Made by a program: the position numbers and the translations under genes. This document shows positions 686 through 31,319 of a stretch of DNA of 38,080 nucleotides, in pieces (the stretch's first letter is position 1; the number at the start of each line of letters is the position of its first letter). Under the pieces are notes generated by a model. It did not search any database. It saw nothing but the letters and a program-made list of their open reading frames with translations, and was not told where the DNA came from. This stretch comes from Candidatus Pyrohabitans sp. JdFR-17 (lineage in GTDB: Archaea; Hydrothermarchaeota; Hydrothermarchaeia; Hydrothermarchaeales; BMS3B), in assembly GCA_002011115.2 (NCBI GenBank), contig MTME02000095.1:1-38080 (forward strand), in the 5' to 3' direction.

Positions 686-1725
686 ATTACCCCTGTTGCC
701 TTCGCAACCTTCTCTGCCTTATCTCTGCTCAGATTCACGTGCTCAAGAATGGTATAGCGGTGCGGTCGTATTTCGCGCGCCTTCAAAAGTGCTTCAACCA
801 CCTCTCGCCTGCTCACCCCAAGCTCCTCTGCGCTGGTGGGTGCTCCTATCTCAGCGAGTGCTCGCTTTATCCCCTGCCAGTCTCCGCCATGGAGGTACAT
901 CATCATTATTGCGCCCACGCCGCACTGCTCCCCATGCAAACCTGGCTTCTCAGCTATTATATCCAGAGCATGGCTAAACTTGTGCTCAGAACCAGAGCCA
1001 GGGCGGGAGCTTCCTGCTATGCTCATAGCCACGCCACAGGAGATAAGCGCCTTAACCACCTTGCGTATCCCCTCGCGAGAGCCGCGAATCTCCTGCGAGG
1101 AGCGCATAACTATCTTTGCACTCATTCGGGATAATGCGATAGAGTACTCGCTTATCTCCTCGCCGGTAACGCTATGCGCCAGCTCCCAATCGCGAGTAGC
1201 CGTAAGCTTGGAAATCACATCCCCGCACCCGCTGGCGGTTAAGCGGTAGGGTGCTGAGCTTATAACTTCTATGTCCGCAAGCACACCAAGAGGTGCGACA
1301 GCCTCATTTGAAACAGTGCCACTTTCGTGCTTAATTGATGCTCTCGCGCTTGCTATGCCGTCGTGACTTGCTGCGGTGGGTACACTCAGAAATTCCACAT
1401 CAAGCATCTTCGCAGTGAGCTTGGCAACATCTATAACCTTGCCCCCTCCCACGCCCACAAGAAATTCTGCGCCAAAGCTTTTTGCCAGGGCGAGAGCCTC
1501 CTCAACGTTGGAGAAGCTGGCTTGTGTGACCCTGAAAACCTCAACCTCATGCTCTTCTCCCAGGATTTGTACAGCACGCTCTCCAGCAACACGTGCAGTA
1601 GCGCGTCCTGTGAGCAAAAGGCAGCGCTTGCCCAGCTTAAGCTGCGCCACCAGCTTTGGAAGCTCTTCAAGCACGCGCTCGCCCACGAGCACCGCCCGGG
1701 GGAGCTGCATCAATTTAGTGCGCAT
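682..1725 (-). CDS. egsA: sn-glycerol-1-phosphate dehydrogenase
   Basis: 347-aa ORF with GVGGGKVIDVAK, SVPTAASHDGIASARASI and HKFSHALD motifs of archaeal G1P dehydrogenase. Confidence 0.93.
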   Translation of the reverse strand: MRTKLMQLPRAVLVGERVLEELPKLVAQLKLGKRCLLLTGRATARVAGERAVQILGEEHEVEVFRVTQASFSNVEEALALAKSFGAEFLVGVGGGKVIDVAKLTAKMLDVEFLSVPTAASHDGIASARASIKHESGTVSNEAVAPLGVLADIEVISSAPYRLTASGCGDVISKLTATRDWELAHSVTGEEISEYSIALSRMSAKIVMRSSQEIRGSREGIRKVVKALISCGVAMSIAGSSRPGSGSEHKFSHALDIIAEKPGLHGEQCGVGAIMMMYLHGGDWQGIKRALAEIGAPTSAEELGVSRREVVEALLKAREIRPHRYTILEHVNLSRDKAEKVAKATGVI

Positions 1726-17164: not shown

Positions 17165-17314
17165 GTTTCCCTCTCAAACGGTCGGGAAACAATAGGAACC
17201 CGCTGGTGGTTACCCGGAAGCTTCGCTTCCGGCGTGACGTAGTTCCTATAACAACGGAAAGGTTGGAGGTGAAATGCCCGAGAAAAAGGAGAGGAGGAGG
17301 TGGGGCATTTCACC
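17165..17314 (+). other. Candidate structured leader/non-coding RNA element (copy 1)
   Basis: Nested perfect inverted repeats: GTTTCCC 17165-17171/GGGAAAC 17184-17190; ATAGGAAC 17192-17199/GTTCCTAT 17242-17249; CCGGAAGC 17214-17221/GCTTCCGG 17225-17232; then TAACAACGGAAAGGTTGGAGGTGAAA (17249-17274), then GGTGAAATGCCC 17268-17279/GGGCATTTCACC 17303-17314. Confidence 0.6.
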
Positions 17315-17402
17315 TTACCCAGTAATATTGCACATACCGAAGGTAAACATTATTGTTGATCTATTGCTTTAAGGTAAACGTTGACGTTTGCAGGTGTGGT
17401 GA

Positions 17403-18251: not shown

Positions 18252-19967
18252 CTAAAACCCTGCACTCTGAATGCAGTGCCTGTAAAACTCGTCTATTTCT
18301 CTCTTCTCTTCCTCAGTGAATCTCCTCACGTACTTGTCCTCGCGAAGCTTCTTGCCCGTCTTTGCCTCCCATTCGCTGGCTGATATGCTGAACCTCTCCT
18401 GTATACGGTCGCGGTAGAGCTCCGGCAGGACATTGAAAGAGCAGAAGGGCACAATGCGAAGGTCAGGCAGGGCGTAGTGTACGCAACACTTCCTGACCCT
18501 CGCTATGTCGTAGTTGTAGGTGTCCTGGAAGTGCATCATTCCTATGAAAAGAGAGTTTCGGTTAAGTTCCTTGAGCTCAGCGTAAGAGCCTCTCGTTAGG
18601 GAGGATATGAGCACCCTCTTAAGGTCGAGGTACTCCGGCTTCTTTTCCTCGTCGATGAAACGGGAGATATTGGCGAGGGCTTTAATTATAGAGATACCCT
18701 TGCCAGCGAGCTTAAAGCGGGAGTGCTCCACCTCAAAGCTCAGCTCACGAAGGAACTCCAAGAAGCCCTCCACATCGAAAAATCGCGTCAGCGGCACGAG
18801 CGTGCTGCCCTGCTTGAAGGCGTAGGTCGCCATTCCGCACGCGAAGTGTGTAGACAGGCGGTACTTCGGTCTAGCGAAAATCGCCTCCATGAAGTCGGTT
18901 AGGCGAGCGGTACTCGGCACCGGGAAAAAGTCCTCCCTCGCTATGGCTCCGTCGGTCTGCTCTTCTATGGCCTTGATCACCCCGGGTATGGTTATGCGCT
19001 GCTTTTCGCGCTCCTCGCGGGGCATTCTTCCCACGAGGGAAACAGGCTGGAAGTTGACCCCGCGAACAACGTCTAAGTTAGCGAAGGCGAAGCGCAAAAT
19101 ATCTCCCAACTCGTGGTCGTTCGTACCTCGAATAACAGTGGGGACGAGCACCATATTCATTCCGGTGATGCGCGCATTGCGTATTACCCCCGGCACCTCG
19201 TAGTAATTCTTGGGATTCGTTTTCGGTGTAACTCCGTCGAAGCTCATGTAGAGAATGATGTGCCCGCGCTTGCTTCCCACTTCCTTTATCTTCCTCATAA
19301 GCTCTAAGTTGCGGGAAAGCTCTATCCCATTGGTGTTGAGCAGGATGTGCTGAAATCCAGCCTCGCGGCACGCGGCGATTATCTCGAGCAGGTCATCCCG
19401 CAGCGTTGGTTCGCCCCCGGTAAGCTGCACCGCCTCAGCACCAACTGGGCGCTCATTGCGAAGCACCTCAAGCATACGCTTAATCCTCTCCAGCGAGGGC
19501 TCGTATATCCTTCCACCCTCTTTAGCGTAGAAGAAGCAGTACCAGCACGCGATATTGCAGCGGTTTGTCACGACGATGTTCGCCAAGCCGGTGTGGGACT
19601 CATGCTCCTCGCAGAGGCCGCACTTCAGTGGGCACCTCGCTTTGGGCGCTTCCACGTTGGGGTTGTGTAGCTTTACACCATCGTCAGCAAACCTGCTGGC
19701 TAAGTGGTACATAGCGGCGTCTTCCCAGTAAACCTCTCTGGTTACGCCGTGGGTGGAGCAGTATTTTACTATCCACACCTTGTCATCCTTCTCATAAACC
19801 ACTGCGTCTATGACCATGGCGGAGAAATTCTTCTCTGAGGCGCAATCGGGGCAGAGGGAAGAGGTGTAGCGCAGAATCCTCGCATCCTCCCCTACAAGGC
19901 TGGAGAGAAAGCCAGACTCCACCTGTTGACAAAAGTCACAATTAAATGGGGTACTCTGGCTTTCCAT
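18252..19967 (-). CDS. tes: Radical SAM protein of the tetraether lipid synthase (Tes, MJ0619-like) family
   Basis: N-terminal Cys pairs (CDFC, CPDC, CPLKCGLCEEH), radical SAM CNIACWYC, LTGGEPTLRDDLLEII, and C-terminal CCVHYALPDLRIVPFCSFNVLPE. Confidence 0.8.
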   Translation of the reverse strand: MESQSTPFNCDFCQQVESGFLSSLVGEDARILRYTSSLCPDCASEKNFSAMVIDAVVYEKDDKVWIVKYCSTHGVTREVYWEDAAMYHLASRFADDGVKLHNPNVEAPKARCPLKCGLCEEHESHTGLANIVVTNRCNIACWYCFFYAKEGGRIYEPSLERIKRMLEVLRNERPVGAEAVQLTGGEPTLRDDLLEIIAACREAGFQHILLNTNGIELSRNLELMRKIKEVGSKRGHIILYMSFDGVTPKTNPKNYYEVPGVIRNARITGMNMVLVPTVIRGTNDHELGDILRFAFANLDVVRGVNFQPVSLVGRMPREEREKQRITIPGVIKAIEEQTDGAIAREDFFPVPSTARLTDFMEAIFARPKYRLSTHFACGMATYAFKQGSTLVPLTRFFDVEGFLEFLRELSFEVEHSRFKLAGKGISIIKALANISRFIDEEKKPEYLDLKRVLISSLTRGSYAELKELNRNSLFIGMMHFQDTYNYDIARVRKCCVHYALPDLRIVPFCSFNVLPELYRDRIQERFSISASEWEAKTGKKLREDKYVRRFTEEEKREIDEFYRHCIQSAGF

Positions 19968-20010: not shown

Positions 20011-21780
20011 TTATTTTTCCTGATATTTAAGCTTTCGCTTTTTTCTTGAAATGTAGGCTGCCGCCGCTATCCCGACGAATACACCCAGCAATAGGATGGT
20101 CGCTGAGAGAAGCAGGCTTCTCTTTTTCAGATATTTTGGTTTAACAGTTTCATGAACGCCGTCGTGGCATCTCTCGCAGTTTTTGTCATTACAGTATTTC
20201 ACCTTGCTCTTTATTGAAAAATCACCTGGGAAATTCCATCGAATACCATAAATCCATGGTGCGTACTGCTCCGCTTTTTCCAGAGGAATTTCACTGGTGT
20301 TTCTGAGGAGAATGAACATGCCCGTGGAGTTGGCTATTACATAGCTCTCTCCGGAGAAGTACATACTCTCATCCACGTGCTCCCCCTCATAGCTCCAGGT
20401 TGCATAGCTGCGCTGCTCGCCTGTGGAATGGCAGCTATCGCATTCCCTGCCCTTACCAAAGCCGTGGGATACCTTGTCCATGTGCACCCAGGCTATTGCA
20501 TTGTTGTACCTTGGCAGAGAAGAGAAGGTGCCCACTACAGCAAAGGCGTCGCGTGAGGAGTTGCGCAGCCCTGGTAGAGCCCTGAAGCTCAGGCTGGTGG
20601 AGTTGAGGCTGTGCTTCATGTTCAGCACCGCCTGGGGCATGGGTTTGACAGGAATCCACTTTCCAGCGTCGTCCCTTATCAATATTGGCACATCCATAAT
20701 CCCGTAGTAGTTTATCTTCGCCAGAGGTGTGGGCATGCCGTAGTAGTCGCCAGGTGCCCAGAAGGTTGCCTGGTAGCCGGCTAAGCTCGAGACGTGGCAC
20801 GCCTCGCAGGTTAAGTTTGCGTGCACACTCTTCGCCAGCTTAGCTTCTTCCCTTAGATGGCAATCGCTGCAGGTGGCGCTTCTGGTTATGTTGTGGTCCT
20901 GATAGGTGTGGCATTCTAAGCATGAAAGGTTCAGGTCAGCGTGCACATCATTGGGCAAGCCAAAAACCTCTTCACGGAAGTAGCCGGCGCCGCGGCGGTA
21001 CTCCTCCGCGCCCACGTGGCATATTCCGCGCCCACCACCGAAGTAGCATGTGCTCGCCTCCACTCTGCGGGAGAAGAAGTGCTTACCTTCGCCTTTATCT
21101 GGCTGATAGTGGCAGTCCAAGCAGGAGGTGTGGCACTGCTGGCACACTCGATCGTTGAGCGCCGCCTGCTCCTCAGAGTAGGGCACCGCCAGGTCCTCGC
21201 GTATTGCAGAGAGGTTCACAAGCCAGTAGCCGCAGTTGTGAGGCGCCGGCGAGGTGAATCTTGGATATGCGCTCTGCATTCTGGCGTTGCCCATGCTCGA
21301 TGTCAGGTAGTCTTCCACCTGGCGGGGATGGCACTTTCCGCAGGTCATATTTGCGATGGTAAAGTTAAAGGCATAGTTCTCTCTGTTTCTGTCGTGGTAA
21401 AGCACCGTCTTGACTTGATAGGGATCGTTCACTATGCGCAGCGCAAGGCTTCCTGGATAATAAATGTCTATTTTTGGATAATATGAGCGGTTGAGCTTTA
21501 AAAGAGCGTCCTCGCGGGAGATGATTAACAGAGAAAGCATTCCAGCGTGAGCGCCATCCTTTGTGTAGTTCTCAGCATCGCCGAGGTGACAGTCCTCGCA
21601 CTGAGGGCCGCCTAATCCCTGACGAAACATCTTGCTCTGATTCCATACTTCCTCGAGGGTAACCACAAACTCCTCGTAGCCCTGCATAAGTGTGGCATTC
21701 CCATGGCAGTATGTGCAGGAGCTTGCCTCTAATGCTGGTAGGAGCAGCCCAACTGCAAGTATTAAAAGCAGCGTTCTCAT
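20011..21780 (-). CDS. Membrane-anchored multiheme c-type cytochrome
   Basis: Signal peptide; ten CxxCH motifs (CTYCH, CEDCH, CGKCH, CQQCH, CLDCH, CLECH, CSDCH, CEACH, CDSCH, CERCH) plus an atypical CYFGGGRGICH; C-terminal TM and RKKRK. Confidence 0.93.
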   Translation of the reverse strand: MRTLLLILAVGLLLPALEASSCTYCHGNATLMQGYEEFVVTLEEVWNQSKMFRQGLGGPQCEDCHLGDAENYTKDGAHAGMLSLLIISREDALLKLNRSYYPKIDIYYPGSLALRIVNDPYQVKTVLYHDRNRENYAFNFTIANMTCGKCHPRQVEDYLTSSMGNARMQSAYPRFTSPAPHNCGYWLVNLSAIREDLAVPYSEEQAALNDRVCQQCHTSCLDCHYQPDKGEGKHFFSRRVEASTCYFGGGRGICHVGAEEYRRGAGYFREEVFGLPNDVHADLNLSCLECHTYQDHNITRSATCSDCHLREEAKLAKSVHANLTCEACHVSSLAGYQATFWAPGDYYGMPTPLAKINYYGIMDVPILIRDDAGKWIPVKPMPQAVLNMKHSLNSTSLSFRALPGLRNSSRDAFAVVGTFSSLPRYNNAIAWVHMDKVSHGFGKGRECDSCHSTGEQRSYATWSYEGEHVDESMYFSGESYVIANSTGMFILLRNTSEIPLEKAEQYAPWIYGIRWNFPGDFSIKSKVKYCNDKNCERCHDGVHETVKPKYLKKRSLLLSATILLLGVFVGIAAAAYISRKKRKLKYQEK

Positions 21781-28024: not shown

Positions 28025-28611
28025 GTTTTCACCTTTTCTCTGAGCTTTTTGTACTCTTCAGGTGTGTTTATGTTGAGAAAGCTTAGCATCTCTATGCCTT
28101 CTCTGCTGAGCTTTTCCTCGGGTACAAAATTAACATTGAGCAGGGTTAGAAGTGAATTCATACTTTTCAGCTCTTTTTTACTCTTCGCCAAAAGGGCTCG
28201 CTTATAATAAACGGCATGCAGGGGTTCAGCGAAGCCTCTGACAACAGGCACTGCTGCGTCGTAGCCTTTAACCTCTCGCATAAGTAAGTAGTATAATCCT
28301 GGTTCGAGCAGAGGGGAATCCACAGGCATTACAGCGAGATACTCATAGCTCGCGTGCTTGGCAGCTGAGATCAGGGCATAAGCTGGGCCTTTTCCAGGTT
28401 TTTCATCCAGCACTACTTTGAAATTACACTCAGCGCTTATCTGCGATGCCTGCTCCTCAGTTGCCAGGGAAACAATAACCTCTTGAGCAAAGCGTGTGGC
28501 GACCTTGAGTATGCGTTCAATAAAACTTTCTCCATCGAGTGTTAAAAATCTTTTATCTTTTCCCATCCTTCTGCTTTGCCCGCCAGCGAATATAACCGCG
28601 GTGCACAGCAT
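28015..28611 (-). CDS. mobA: Molybdenum cofactor guanylyltransferase MobA
   Basis: MLCTAVIFAGGQSRRMGKDKRFLTLDGESFIERIL...VLDEKPGKGPAYALISAAKHASYEYLAVMPVDSPLLEP. Start uncertain (28611 to 28644). Confidence 0.93.
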   Translation of the reverse strand: MLCTAVIFAGGQSRRMGKDKRFLTLDGESFIERILKVATRFAQEVIVSLATEEQASQISAECNFKVVLDEKPGKGPAYALISAAKHASYEYLAVMPVDSPLLEPGLYYLLMREVKGYDAAVPVVRGFAEPLHAVYYKRALLAKSKKELKSMNSLLTLLNVNFVPEEKLSREGIEMLSFLNINTPEEYKKLREKVKTCR

Positions 28612-28695
28612 TTTTTCATTACGGTTGTGCATTTTCATGCCCAATTCCGCCCTGAATCATTTTTTCATTACGGTTGTGCATTTTTATGCCCAATT
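28609..28695. repeat. 49-bp tandem duplication (1.8 copies) over the mobA start region
   Basis: CATTTTTTCATTACGGTTGTGCATTTTCATGCCCAATT (28609-28646) and CATTTTTTCATTACGGTTGTGCATTTTTATGCCCAATT (28658-28695): 37/38 identical, offset 49. Confidence 0.95.
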
Positions 28696-28745
28696 TTGCA
28701 TCAGATAAAAAAGTATATATATGGTGAAGTAATTAAAATTTAAAA

Positions 28746-28821
28746 GGTTACAGCGAAGTCGCGTGGGGTAGTTTTTACAAGCCCACGCAGTATGGTAACA
28801 ACGGAAAGGTTGGAGGTGAAA
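28746..28821 (+). other. Candidate structured leader RNA element (copy 2) in the 5' region of the molybdopterin oxidoreductase
   Basis: GGTTAC 28746-28751 pairing with GTAAC 28795-28799; GCGTGGG 28761-28767/CCCACGC 28782-28788; then TAACAACGGAAAGGTTGGAGGTGAAA (28796-28821), identical to 17249-17274. Confidence 0.6.
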
Positions 28822-28823
28822 AA

Positions 28824-31319
28824 GTGGTAGTATTGAGGAGAGTGTCGGAGTCCGTAAAGGACTACGATACAATCAGGTACACCACCTGCGACAACATGTG
28901 CGAAAGCGGTTGCGGGATGAAGGTGTACCTCAAGGATGGCAGAATAGTCGACATCTGGGGTGACGACGAGCATCCACAGAACTACGGCTCTCTATGCCCG
29001 AAGGGAACGGCTAACTACCAGCATGCATATAATCCCCTGCGCGCCAAATATCCTGTTATTAGAGAGGACAACGTAAACGGCAAGTTCAGGCGCGTCACCT
29101 GGGACGAAGCCCTCGACTTCGTCGCAGACCGCCTGAAGTACATCCGTGAGAAGTGGGGTGCCCACACCGTAGCATGCCACCGCACTGGAAGGAGCAGCTA
29201 CGGTAACAAGCTAGGTGGCTCAAGATTCCTTGCCATGTACGGTACCCCGAACATCTACGGCCAGGGTCCGCTTTGCTGTGAGTCACCTGGGGCGAGGGGT
29301 CAGTATGTATTTGGCGCCAAGGAGTTCCTGCGCCTGATGAACCCCTGCCAGGATGCAATGAACAGCGATACCATATTCATCTCCGGTGCCAACGCTGCGG
29401 CGCTGGAAGTAATAACCATGAAGTGGTTCATCGAGGCCCAGGATCGCAACGGCGCAAAGATGATAGTCATAGACCCGCGCTTCAATGCGACAATGGCCAA
29501 GGCAGACCTTGCCCTGCGACTGCGCCCGACCACCGACGCCTATCTGGCGAATGCGCTTGCCCACGTGCTTATCTATGAGATAGATGGAATTGACAAGGAC
29601 TTTATAGCTCGCTGGACTGTGGGCTTTGAGAAGTACAAGGAGCTGGTGAAGGACTATACACCCGAGAAGGCGGAGAACATCACCTGGGTTCCTGCGGAGG
29701 ACATACGCAAGGCTGCAGAGTGGATAGCCTACCCGAGGAGGACTCACTTCACTGGTTGCTTAGGTACTGCGCAGCAGTACAATGCTGGTAATGGTAATGC
29801 TGCCTACCAGATACTCGTCGCCATAACCGGTAACGTGGGCGTTAAGGGAGGAGGCTGGAACTGGCTCCACAACTGTCGCCCAGTGCTCAGCGCTGGTAAG
29901 GACCTGAAGGAGTACGTTGCAAAGATAAAGGAGCCCCAGCTTGCTGACAAGATAATTCCGTGGGGCGACACATCAAGCGCGTGCACAATTAACCCCGGCT
30001 ATACCGGCAAGCCCTACCCGGTCAAGGGTCTCATCTGGAATGGAAATCACATAGTGCAGTGGCCCAACAACAACAAGGTTCGCGAGTACATGAAGAACCT
30101 GTACTGCGGTGTACACCTGAGCTTCCATCCCAACGAGACCATGAGCTGGATGCACGCCGCATTCCCGATAACCAGCTTCTTCGAGCATGAAGGCGTTGTC
30201 CACCACGGCAACAACCGCCACGTGCAGTGGCACAACCAGATTATAGAGCGCCAGTGGGAGTGTCGCGCCGACATAGACTTCTGGGCAGGTCTGGCCAAGC
30301 GCTTCGAGTTCGCCGAGGCGTATTATGCTCCTGATGGCAAGAGCTGGTGGGCGAAGAAGGACGTGTTCGGCAACCCCTTGCCCGAGGATCCCAAGTATCC
30401 GGGCACCACCCACGAGATCGACGAGCGCGTATGCCAGAACTGGTTCCACTCCCAGGAGAGCTTCGTCGCCGGCATAACCGTGGAGCTCATGGATCCCGAG
30501 ATGTCCCCGAAGGGCGGTGTGATGTGGCCTGCCGAGACCAAGGACGAGGCCATGATGTACTCCGACCCCGAGGCGACAATACGCGGTGCCCAGTGGATAA
30601 TGTACAAGGAGGGTGTGAACTACCCAGGTACAGACAAGCGCTTCCCGACACCGAGCGGCAAGGTGGAGATATACTCCCAGGCTCTGGAGCAGATTGGCTG
30701 GTATCCACTGCCCATACACATCGAGCCCAGCAATGCTCCAGTTGCGAGGCCTGACCTGTGGGAGAAGTATCCGCTCATCCTGTGCACTGGTCGCCTTGTG
30801 GCGCACTTCCACGAGATGGGCCACTGGTGGCCGTGGATGGTTGAGCTTGAGCCTCACAGGTTCATAAACATCCACACCGAGCTTGCGAAGGCTCTCGGAA
30901 TACGCGACGGTGACACTGTGGTGTGCGAGAACGACTACGGCAAGGTGATCGGCCCCGCCTGGGTCAACGAGATGGTTGATGAGGGCGAGGTATGGGGTCC
31001 AGAAGGTTTCGACAAGTATCAGCCCTTCTATCCGTACAGCAACATTAATGAACTCGTGGACGACACTGTGAAGGACCCATTCTACACCCAGGCTCAGTAC
31101 AAGTGCAACCTGGTCAGAGTGTACCGTCTGGGTGACGATCCAGACAAGGCTGTGGAGAAGACCAAGGAGTTCCTTGCCAAGGTCAAGCGCACACCCAAGG
31201 ACTACCTCGACCCAGAGAAGGAGCCCACTGTCAACCTGGGTACCTACACCAGGTTCATCCAGAAGGGCAGCGGCATCTACTATGTAGGCGTGCCGCGTGA
31301 GAAGTGGGAGACCAAGTGA
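28824..31319 (+). CDS. Molybdopterin oxidoreductase, DMSO reductase superfamily, catalytic subunit with N-terminal Fe-S motif
   Basis: TCDNMCESGCGMKVYLKDGRIVDIWGDDEHPQNYGSLCPKG...VIDPRFNATMAKADLALRLRPTTDAYLANAL...RFPTPSGKVEIYSQALEQIGWYPLP...YPLILCTGR. No obvious Tat signal. Confidence 0.93.
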   Translation: MVVLRRVSESVKDYDTIRYTTCDNMCESGCGMKVYLKDGRIVDIWGDDEHPQNYGSLCPKGTANYQHAYNPLRAKYPVIREDNVNGKFRRVTWDEALDFVADRLKYIREKWGAHTVACHRTGRSSYGNKLGGSRFLAMYGTPNIYGQGPLCCESPGARGQYVFGAKEFLRLMNPCQDAMNSDTIFISGANAAALEVITMKWFIEAQDRNGAKMIVIDPRFNATMAKADLALRLRPTTDAYLANALAHVLIYEIDGIDKDFIARWTVGFEKYKELVKDYTPEKAENITWVPAEDIRKAAEWIAYPRRTHFTGCLGTAQQYNAGNGNAAYQILVAITGNVGVKGGGWNWLHNCRPVLSAGKDLKEYVAKIKEPQLADKIIPWGDTSSACTINPGYTGKPYPVKGLIWNGNHIVQWPNNNKVREYMKNLYCGVHLSFHPNETMSWMHAAFPITSFFEHEGVVHHGNNRHVQWHNQIIERQWECRADIDFWAGLAKRFEFAEAYYAPDGKSWWAKKDVFGNPLPEDPKYPGTTHEIDERVCQNWFHSQESFVAGITVELMDPEMSPKGGVMWPAETKDEAMMYSDPEATIRGAQWIMYKEGVNYPGTDKRFPTPSGKVEIYSQALEQIGWYPLPIHIEPSNAPVARPDLWEKYPLILCTGRLVAHFHEMGHWWPWMVELEPHRFINIHTELAKALGIRDGDTVVCENDYGKVIGPAWVNEMVDEGEVWGPEGFDKYQPFYPYSNINELVDDTVKDPFYTQAQYKCNLVRVYRLGDDPDKAVEKTKEFLAKVKRTPKDYLDPEKEPTVNLGTYTRFIQKGSGIYYVGVPREKWETK

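Follow-up and report, generated by a model that had tools for sequence, protein, structure and literature searches.

The question raised by this locus is why a 26-nucleotide sequence lying directly in front of a molybdoenzyme gene occurs a second time, about 11.5 kb away. The sequence, TAACAACGGAAAGGTTGGAGGTGAAA, is present exactly, on the plus strand, at positions 17249-17274 (copy 1) and 28796-28821 (copy 2) of the window, by which we mean the whole 38,080-nucleotide stretch of DNA that was analysed. The repeat, already pointed out in the original prediction, was confirmed, the number of copies expected by chance being 0 (100 dinucleotide shuffles). Copy 2 is surrounded by the following features.

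28711..28722, plus strand: AAGTATATATAT, a putative TATA box for the DMSOR operon, proposed from the sequence, which is kept within the genus
28761..28788, plus strand: leader hairpin GCGTGGG/CCCACGC, genus-specific, pair probability about 0.99
28796..28821, plus strand: proposed target site UAACAACGGAAAGGUUGGAGGUGAAA in the DMSOR mRNA leader, SD included; exact 26-mer with its second copy at 17249-17274
28812..28819, plus strand: Shine-Dalgarno (SD) sequence GGAGGTGA of the DMSOR gene, 4 nt before GTG 28824
28824..31319, plus strand: DMSOR-family molybdopterin oxidoreductase catalytic subunit, 831 aa (Pfam PF00384, PF01568, PF04879)

The SD assigned earlier proved to be rightly spaced for the GTG that starts this DMSOR-family gene. 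The encoded protein had no NCBIfam equivalog above its cut-off, and moeA and mobA adjoin the gene, upstream and divergent. It is near certain that the repeated box functions in part as an SD, which explains part of its conservation. Upstream of the promoter we also observed a direct repeat, TTTTTTCATTACGGTTGTGCATTTTyATGCCCAATT, at window positions 28610-28645 and 28659-28694. Sites resembling GGTTGTGCA recur upstream of the DMSOR gene in relatives and are possibly the site of another regulator.

The two copies had been read as one conserved RNA fold that might exert cofactor-responsive translational control. We examined this in nine genomes from three genera of one Hydrothermarchaeota family (g1, the genus of the window, g2, and g3). 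The inner hairpin at 28761-28788 is indeed predicted, and the folding z-score of the DMSOR leader was -2.1. The outer GTTAC/GTAAC pairing did not hold up, being missing from the minimum-energy fold with a probability of about 0.1-0.18. It is invariant within the genus, so that covariation is unreadable there, and it is absent from the orthologous g2 and g3 leaders. A different hairpin takes the place of the inner one in g2, and g3 has no clear equivalent. Nor did the supposed parallel in layout survive, as the sequence 5' of copy 1 varies even within the genus: the simple hairpin present there in G007 and G008 is a different one, and in G006 and G009 the box stands close behind the guaA stop without a comparable stem-loop. 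Alignment of the nine leaders revealed folds kept neither between copies nor between genera, and conservation across the family was limited to the tail GRAAGGTTGGAGGTGAAA. The Rfam Moco riboswitch model gave no match at its gathering threshold, nor at E <= 5 in 28600-28900; in place of a conserved multi-stem aptamer with a GNRA tetraloop and receptor, the nine leaders offer a single genus-specific hairpin. A riboswitch or conserved leader fold was rejected on the basis of the alignment and the Rfam searches. What survives of the original proposal is control at this SD and the link to Mo/W, the latter better supported because the partner element adjoins tfx and modABC in related genera; the cofactor-sensing fold is left unsupported.

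Comparison across the family led in another direction. The box is present in nine of the ten family genomes, covering all three genera, and always in at least two copies. One copy always precedes the DMSOR gene, and the remaining copies precede no conserved gene; in g1 they follow guaA, in g2 they adjoin tfx and modABC, and in g3 they adjoin tfx, while an additional g2 paralogue of copy 1 lies beside a MazE/AbrB-like gene. The tenth genome, G004 (91% complete), lacks both the sRNA described below and the DMSOR orthologue, and in place of the latter has only a 43% paralogue. An 18-mer scan of 84,980 species returned 15 stretches from the window's family and 21 from bacteria, the latter at about chance level. 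The Hydrothermarchaeota records with the box included Candidatus Pyrohabitans jungbluthii JdFR-16, and the other matches were single and scattered among bacteria. DMSOR orthologues outside the family (G010, G013, G015) are without the extended 18-19-base box and have only the SD context TTGGAGGTGAAA with a short leader; pattern matches with two mismatches in G015 and G010 are not located at DMSOR.

Seen in this way, the two copies resemble a target site and the complement of the RNA antisense to it rather than a pair of aptamers. If this is right, a repeated leader picked out by eye can amount to the two sides of one target-antisense pair. Read on the minus strand, the region of copy 1 has the following features.

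17374..17391, no strand: palindromic operator C, GTAAACGTTGACGTTTGC, from the sequence; a comparable palindrome lies on the same side of sRNA loci
17343..17360, no strand: palindromic operator B, GTAAACATTATTGTTGAT, its AAACATTATT core kept beside all 11 sRNA loci
17251..17342, minus strand: proposed sRNA core, its extent being the match of covariance model R1
17267..17315, minus strand: sRNA stem of 13 perfect bp, arms 17303-17315 and 17267-17279, with a 23-nt loop
17249..17274, minus strand: sRNA antisense stretch UUUCACCUCCAACCUUUCCGUUGUUA, perfect 26-nt complement of 28796-28821
17192..17249, minus strand: one or more hairpins on the 3' side of the antisense sequence, ATAGGAAC/GTTCCTAT and CCGGAAGC/GCTTCCGG, a possible sRNA 3' end that is not conserved

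The order on this strand is thus palindromes, hairpin, and a single-stranded tail, CCAACCUUUCC. At copy-1 loci the box forms one arm of an inverted repeat, and TACCGAAGGTAAACATTATTGTT and the second palindrome follow 25-35 nt further on. Model R1 matched 11 loci in the nine family genomes with E-values from 1e-11 to 1e-16, values that follow by construction because the model was built from these same loci; the informative result is that no match at E <= 0.05 was obtained elsewhere in the phylum. No Rfam family matched the putative sRNA. Hairpins related to that at 17192..17249 were found in G007 and G008, and none in G006 and G009. A TATA box can be made out at the g2 and g3 sRNA loci, but at no fixed distance; in g1 it is poor.

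The strand was judged from substitutions in the stem, which is retained in relatives through G.U pairs when read on the minus strand. Where only one side of the stem has changed in g2 and g3, the outcome is G.U if the minus strand is read but A.C if the plus strand is, an asymmetry that argues with moderate strength for a minus-strand RNA. About five substitution events favour this strand versus two or three opposed, the opposed events being two changes to the distal stem of the g2 paralogue and a single change to the accessory hairpin that G008 carries. Covariation is weak, with a single pair changed on both sides. Among the candidates that we rejected were a short plus-strand ORF at 17274 (MPEKKERRRWG...), which is not conserved and has 2-39 aa among relatives, and a plus-strand stem hiding the SD and ATG of copy 1, which fits the substitutions less well than the minus-strand stem. 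Another was Gut-1 RNA (RF01706) at 17302-17371 on the minus strand, covering the sRNA 5' region and operator B, with 25.6 bits versus a gathering threshold of 50; this weak match recurs solely in G006 among ten relatives. Several other elements were also noted. Radical SAM HMPTM-type proteins (PF23545) are encoded near the sRNA locus in both g1 (window 18252-19967, minus strand) and g2 (L094:6448-8151, minus strand). A 589-aa protein with multihaem cytochrome c7/c3 matches is encoded at window 20011-21780 (minus strand). A HEARO RNA (HNH endonuclease-associated RNA, RF02033, 106 bits) lies near the g2 sRNA paralogue (L200:998-1221, G001:C47).

Complementarity between the two partners was followed genome by genome. 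In the other genomes the sRNA and the DMSOR leader lie on separate contigs or in separate neighbourhoods, and the surroundings of the sRNA gene vary by genus, as in a trans-encoded RNA. The leader box is antisense to the sRNA of its own genome over at least 19 nt in nine of nine genomes, with uninterrupted Watson-Crick pairing of 26 in the window, 24-26 in g1, and 19 in g2 and g3. Pairing between the sRNA and leader of different genera was 11-18, always shorter than that within a genome. The second, diverged g2 paralogue in G002 pairs over 15 nt plus one G.U. Two bases of the box, which includes the SD, differ among genera, and they do so jointly in sRNA and leader: GGAAAGG in g1, TGAAAGG in g2, and GGGAAGG in g3. 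With a 31-nt effector, the DMSOR leader scored better than any other window site apart from the locus of the sRNA itself, at -45.7 versus -32.0 kcal/mol for the next. Duplex-folding energies of the full-length RNA did not separate the leader from background as the effector did, because long intermolecular folds form regardless. Genome searches with the 12-mers AGGTTGGAGGTG and GGTTGGAGGTGA found the sRNA loci, the DMSOR leaders, and otherwise sites in or resembling coding sequence; they yielded no other conserved leader as a further target.

Clues to the signal came from the palindromes upstream of the sRNA, whose consensus is GTnAACA-N4-TGTTnAC. The same palindrome is found upstream of tfx in G001, G002, G003, and G005, where the sRNA shares it, and in G010, G013, G015, and G019; in these last four, some of the tfx genes stand head to head with a transporter gene read by sequence as tungstate tupA. 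In L093 of g2, the palindromes, sRNA, tfx (TIGR00721), modA (TIGR01256, above cut-off), and a permease follow one another on one strand; in g3 the palindromes are flanked by sRNA and tfx, which run outward from them in opposite directions, and in g1 the sRNA gene does not adjoin tfx. In Methanothermobacter, tungstate represses tfx transcription, and fmdECB has a Tfx binding site downstream of its promoter (PMC3087415). From position alone we propose that Tfx is probably the factor that binds the palindromes. Since the operators match those upstream of tfx beside Mo/W transporter genes, the sRNA is probably produced together with the uptake system when molybdate or tungstate is scarce. Palindromes of this type also occur in the promoter region of the 43%-identical DMSOR paralogue (L165 and L166; two in G004, one in G005), which suggests that the paralogue may be under direct transcriptional control by the same factor. 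In G019, between tfx and tupA (L122 at about 1130-1190, minus strand), we noticed an sRNA-like arrangement of a hairpin, AGGUG.AGAAGG/CCUUCUCACCU, followed by CCAACCUUUAC. This look-alike between palindrome and tupA is weak, with an R1 E-value of 0.26, and could reflect an origin of the sRNA in a transporter 5' UTR.

We consider it fairly probable that a trans-acting anti-SD sRNA, co-regulated with Mo/W uptake, is encoded on the strand opposite copy 1 and represses the molybdoenzyme, copy 2 being its target. The evidence comprises complementarity, co-change within genomes, exclusivity, co-absence, operator similarity, and gene context; from these we infer the transcription of the sRNA, its strand, Tfx as the binder, the direction of the metal response, and repression. 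Low Mo/W would derepress the promoters of tfx, the transporter, and the sRNA. The sRNA would run on the minus strand from about 17342 to about 17190, starting near the two palindromic operators, passing through the 13-bp hairpin, and finishing as a tail left open. The sRNA stretch UUUCACC-UCCAACCUUUCCGUUGUUA would form the duplex with that part of the DMSOR mRNA which extends from UAAC to GGAGGUGAAA. The first part to touch the leader would be the tail (CCAACCUUUCC...), at GGAAAGG beside the SD, a segment that pair-probability prediction leaves largely unpaired. The hairpin would then open, and a 26-bp duplex would cover GGAGGUGA, hide the SD and block initiation. With translation of the molybdoenzyme turned off, metal and cofactor would be spared; the molybdopterin oxidoreductase domains and the adjacent moeA and mobA mark the target as a user of the metal.

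Other explanations were weighed against this one. Both copies could work as RNA elements of the plus strand with a protein or ligand in common, as a cis-regulatory element or riboswitch, with copy 1 serving a second regulated start. In favour of this, each copy has an SD and a start codon that point the same way, a plus-strand stem at copy 1 would mask its SD and ATG, and the box is strongly conserved. We nevertheless judge this quite unlikely, given the unconserved copy-1 ORF of 2-39 aa, the lack of any fold around the box kept between copies or genera, and the A.C mismatches that the stem changes produce on the plus strand; moreover, only about 15 nt separate the guaA stop from the box in G006, which leaves no room for a plus-strand promoter. 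Alternatively, a regulator such as Tfx might bind the box as DNA, the hairpin arms being two half-sites. The tfx gene lies close to copy 1 in g2 and g3, and in Methanothermobacter Tfx binds downstream of a molybdoenzyme promoter (PMC3087415). Against this, the box is not palindromic, the arms are spaced by anything between about 20 and 33 nt, no second arm accompanies copy 2, and tfx promoters already have a separate, truly palindromic motif, all of which makes a DNA site very unlikely.

That the two 26-mers merely reflect a recent duplication or a strong SD context, with no regulatory partnership, appears highly improbable. A long SD may be kept by itself, and DMSOR leaders throughout the order contain TTGGAGGTGAAA, those of families without a detected sRNA included; but the pair has lasted in three genera with linked changes while its flanks have wholly diverged, and SD context cannot explain copy 1, which serves no conserved ORF. 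Finally, the antisense sRNA could be real and yet activate or stabilise the DMSOR mRNA, as Methanosarcina sRNA154 does for some targets (PMC5867862), or it could sense a signal other than Mo/W, the metal link being one of gene neighbourhood only. We regard this as unlikely, since the duplex spans the whole SD, which normally blocks initiation, and since the leader is already accessible around GGAAAGG, leaving little to free.

Repression by the antisense sRNA therefore remains our preferred reading, and it bears comparison with known systems. The closest archaeal examples are Methanosarcina mazei sRNA154, acting on glnA2, and sRNA41, acting on polycistronic mRNAs, which are trans-encoded and mask ribosome binding sites (PMC5867862), as proposed here. 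Those serve nitrogen supply in a methanogen, whereas the present case concerns Hydrothermarchaeota, 19-26 nt of pairing, a single detected target, and Mo/W genes; the putative sRNA itself has no Rfam match. Control of molybdenum-related genes from the leader is known for the Moco RNA motif, some members of which mask the ribosome binding site (PMC2408646). That motif is a multi-stem aptamer, 138 nt long in E. coli moaA and reported from bacteria, in contrast to the one simple hairpin here, which gave no match at E <= 5. In Methanothermobacter, tfx (TFX_C, PF14601) likewise lies beside Mo/W-related genes; the accessible part of the report describes no sRNA (PMC3087415), and the link to the palindromes in our case is positional. 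Archaeal sRNAs with a predicted unique target and linked sequence change across genera are few.

The iron-sparing RyhB follows the same logic as the class discussed next. In the IsrR/HrrF class, an sRNA co-regulated with metal uptake turns off metal-using enzymes and so spares iron (PMC9410917, PMC4144887). All three are bacterial and controlled by iron and Fur, whereas the pair described here would answer to Mo/W, probably through Tfx; HrrF does reduce modABC, but in response to iron. The literature searched contained no Mo/W-sparing sRNA. We tentatively suggest, with somewhat less than even confidence, that this is the first such sRNA and the first proposed regulatory sRNA-target pair in Hydrothermarchaeota, that its origin lies within or close to the 5' region of a unit of tfx and Mo/W transporter genes, as in the g2 context, and that it combines an anti-SD-like stretch with an address tail specific to one molybdoenzyme. 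If true, an uncultured phylum would gain a circuit of Tfx, transporter, sRNA, and molybdoenzyme, and metal sparing by sRNA, known for iron in bacteria, would extend to archaea for Mo/W.
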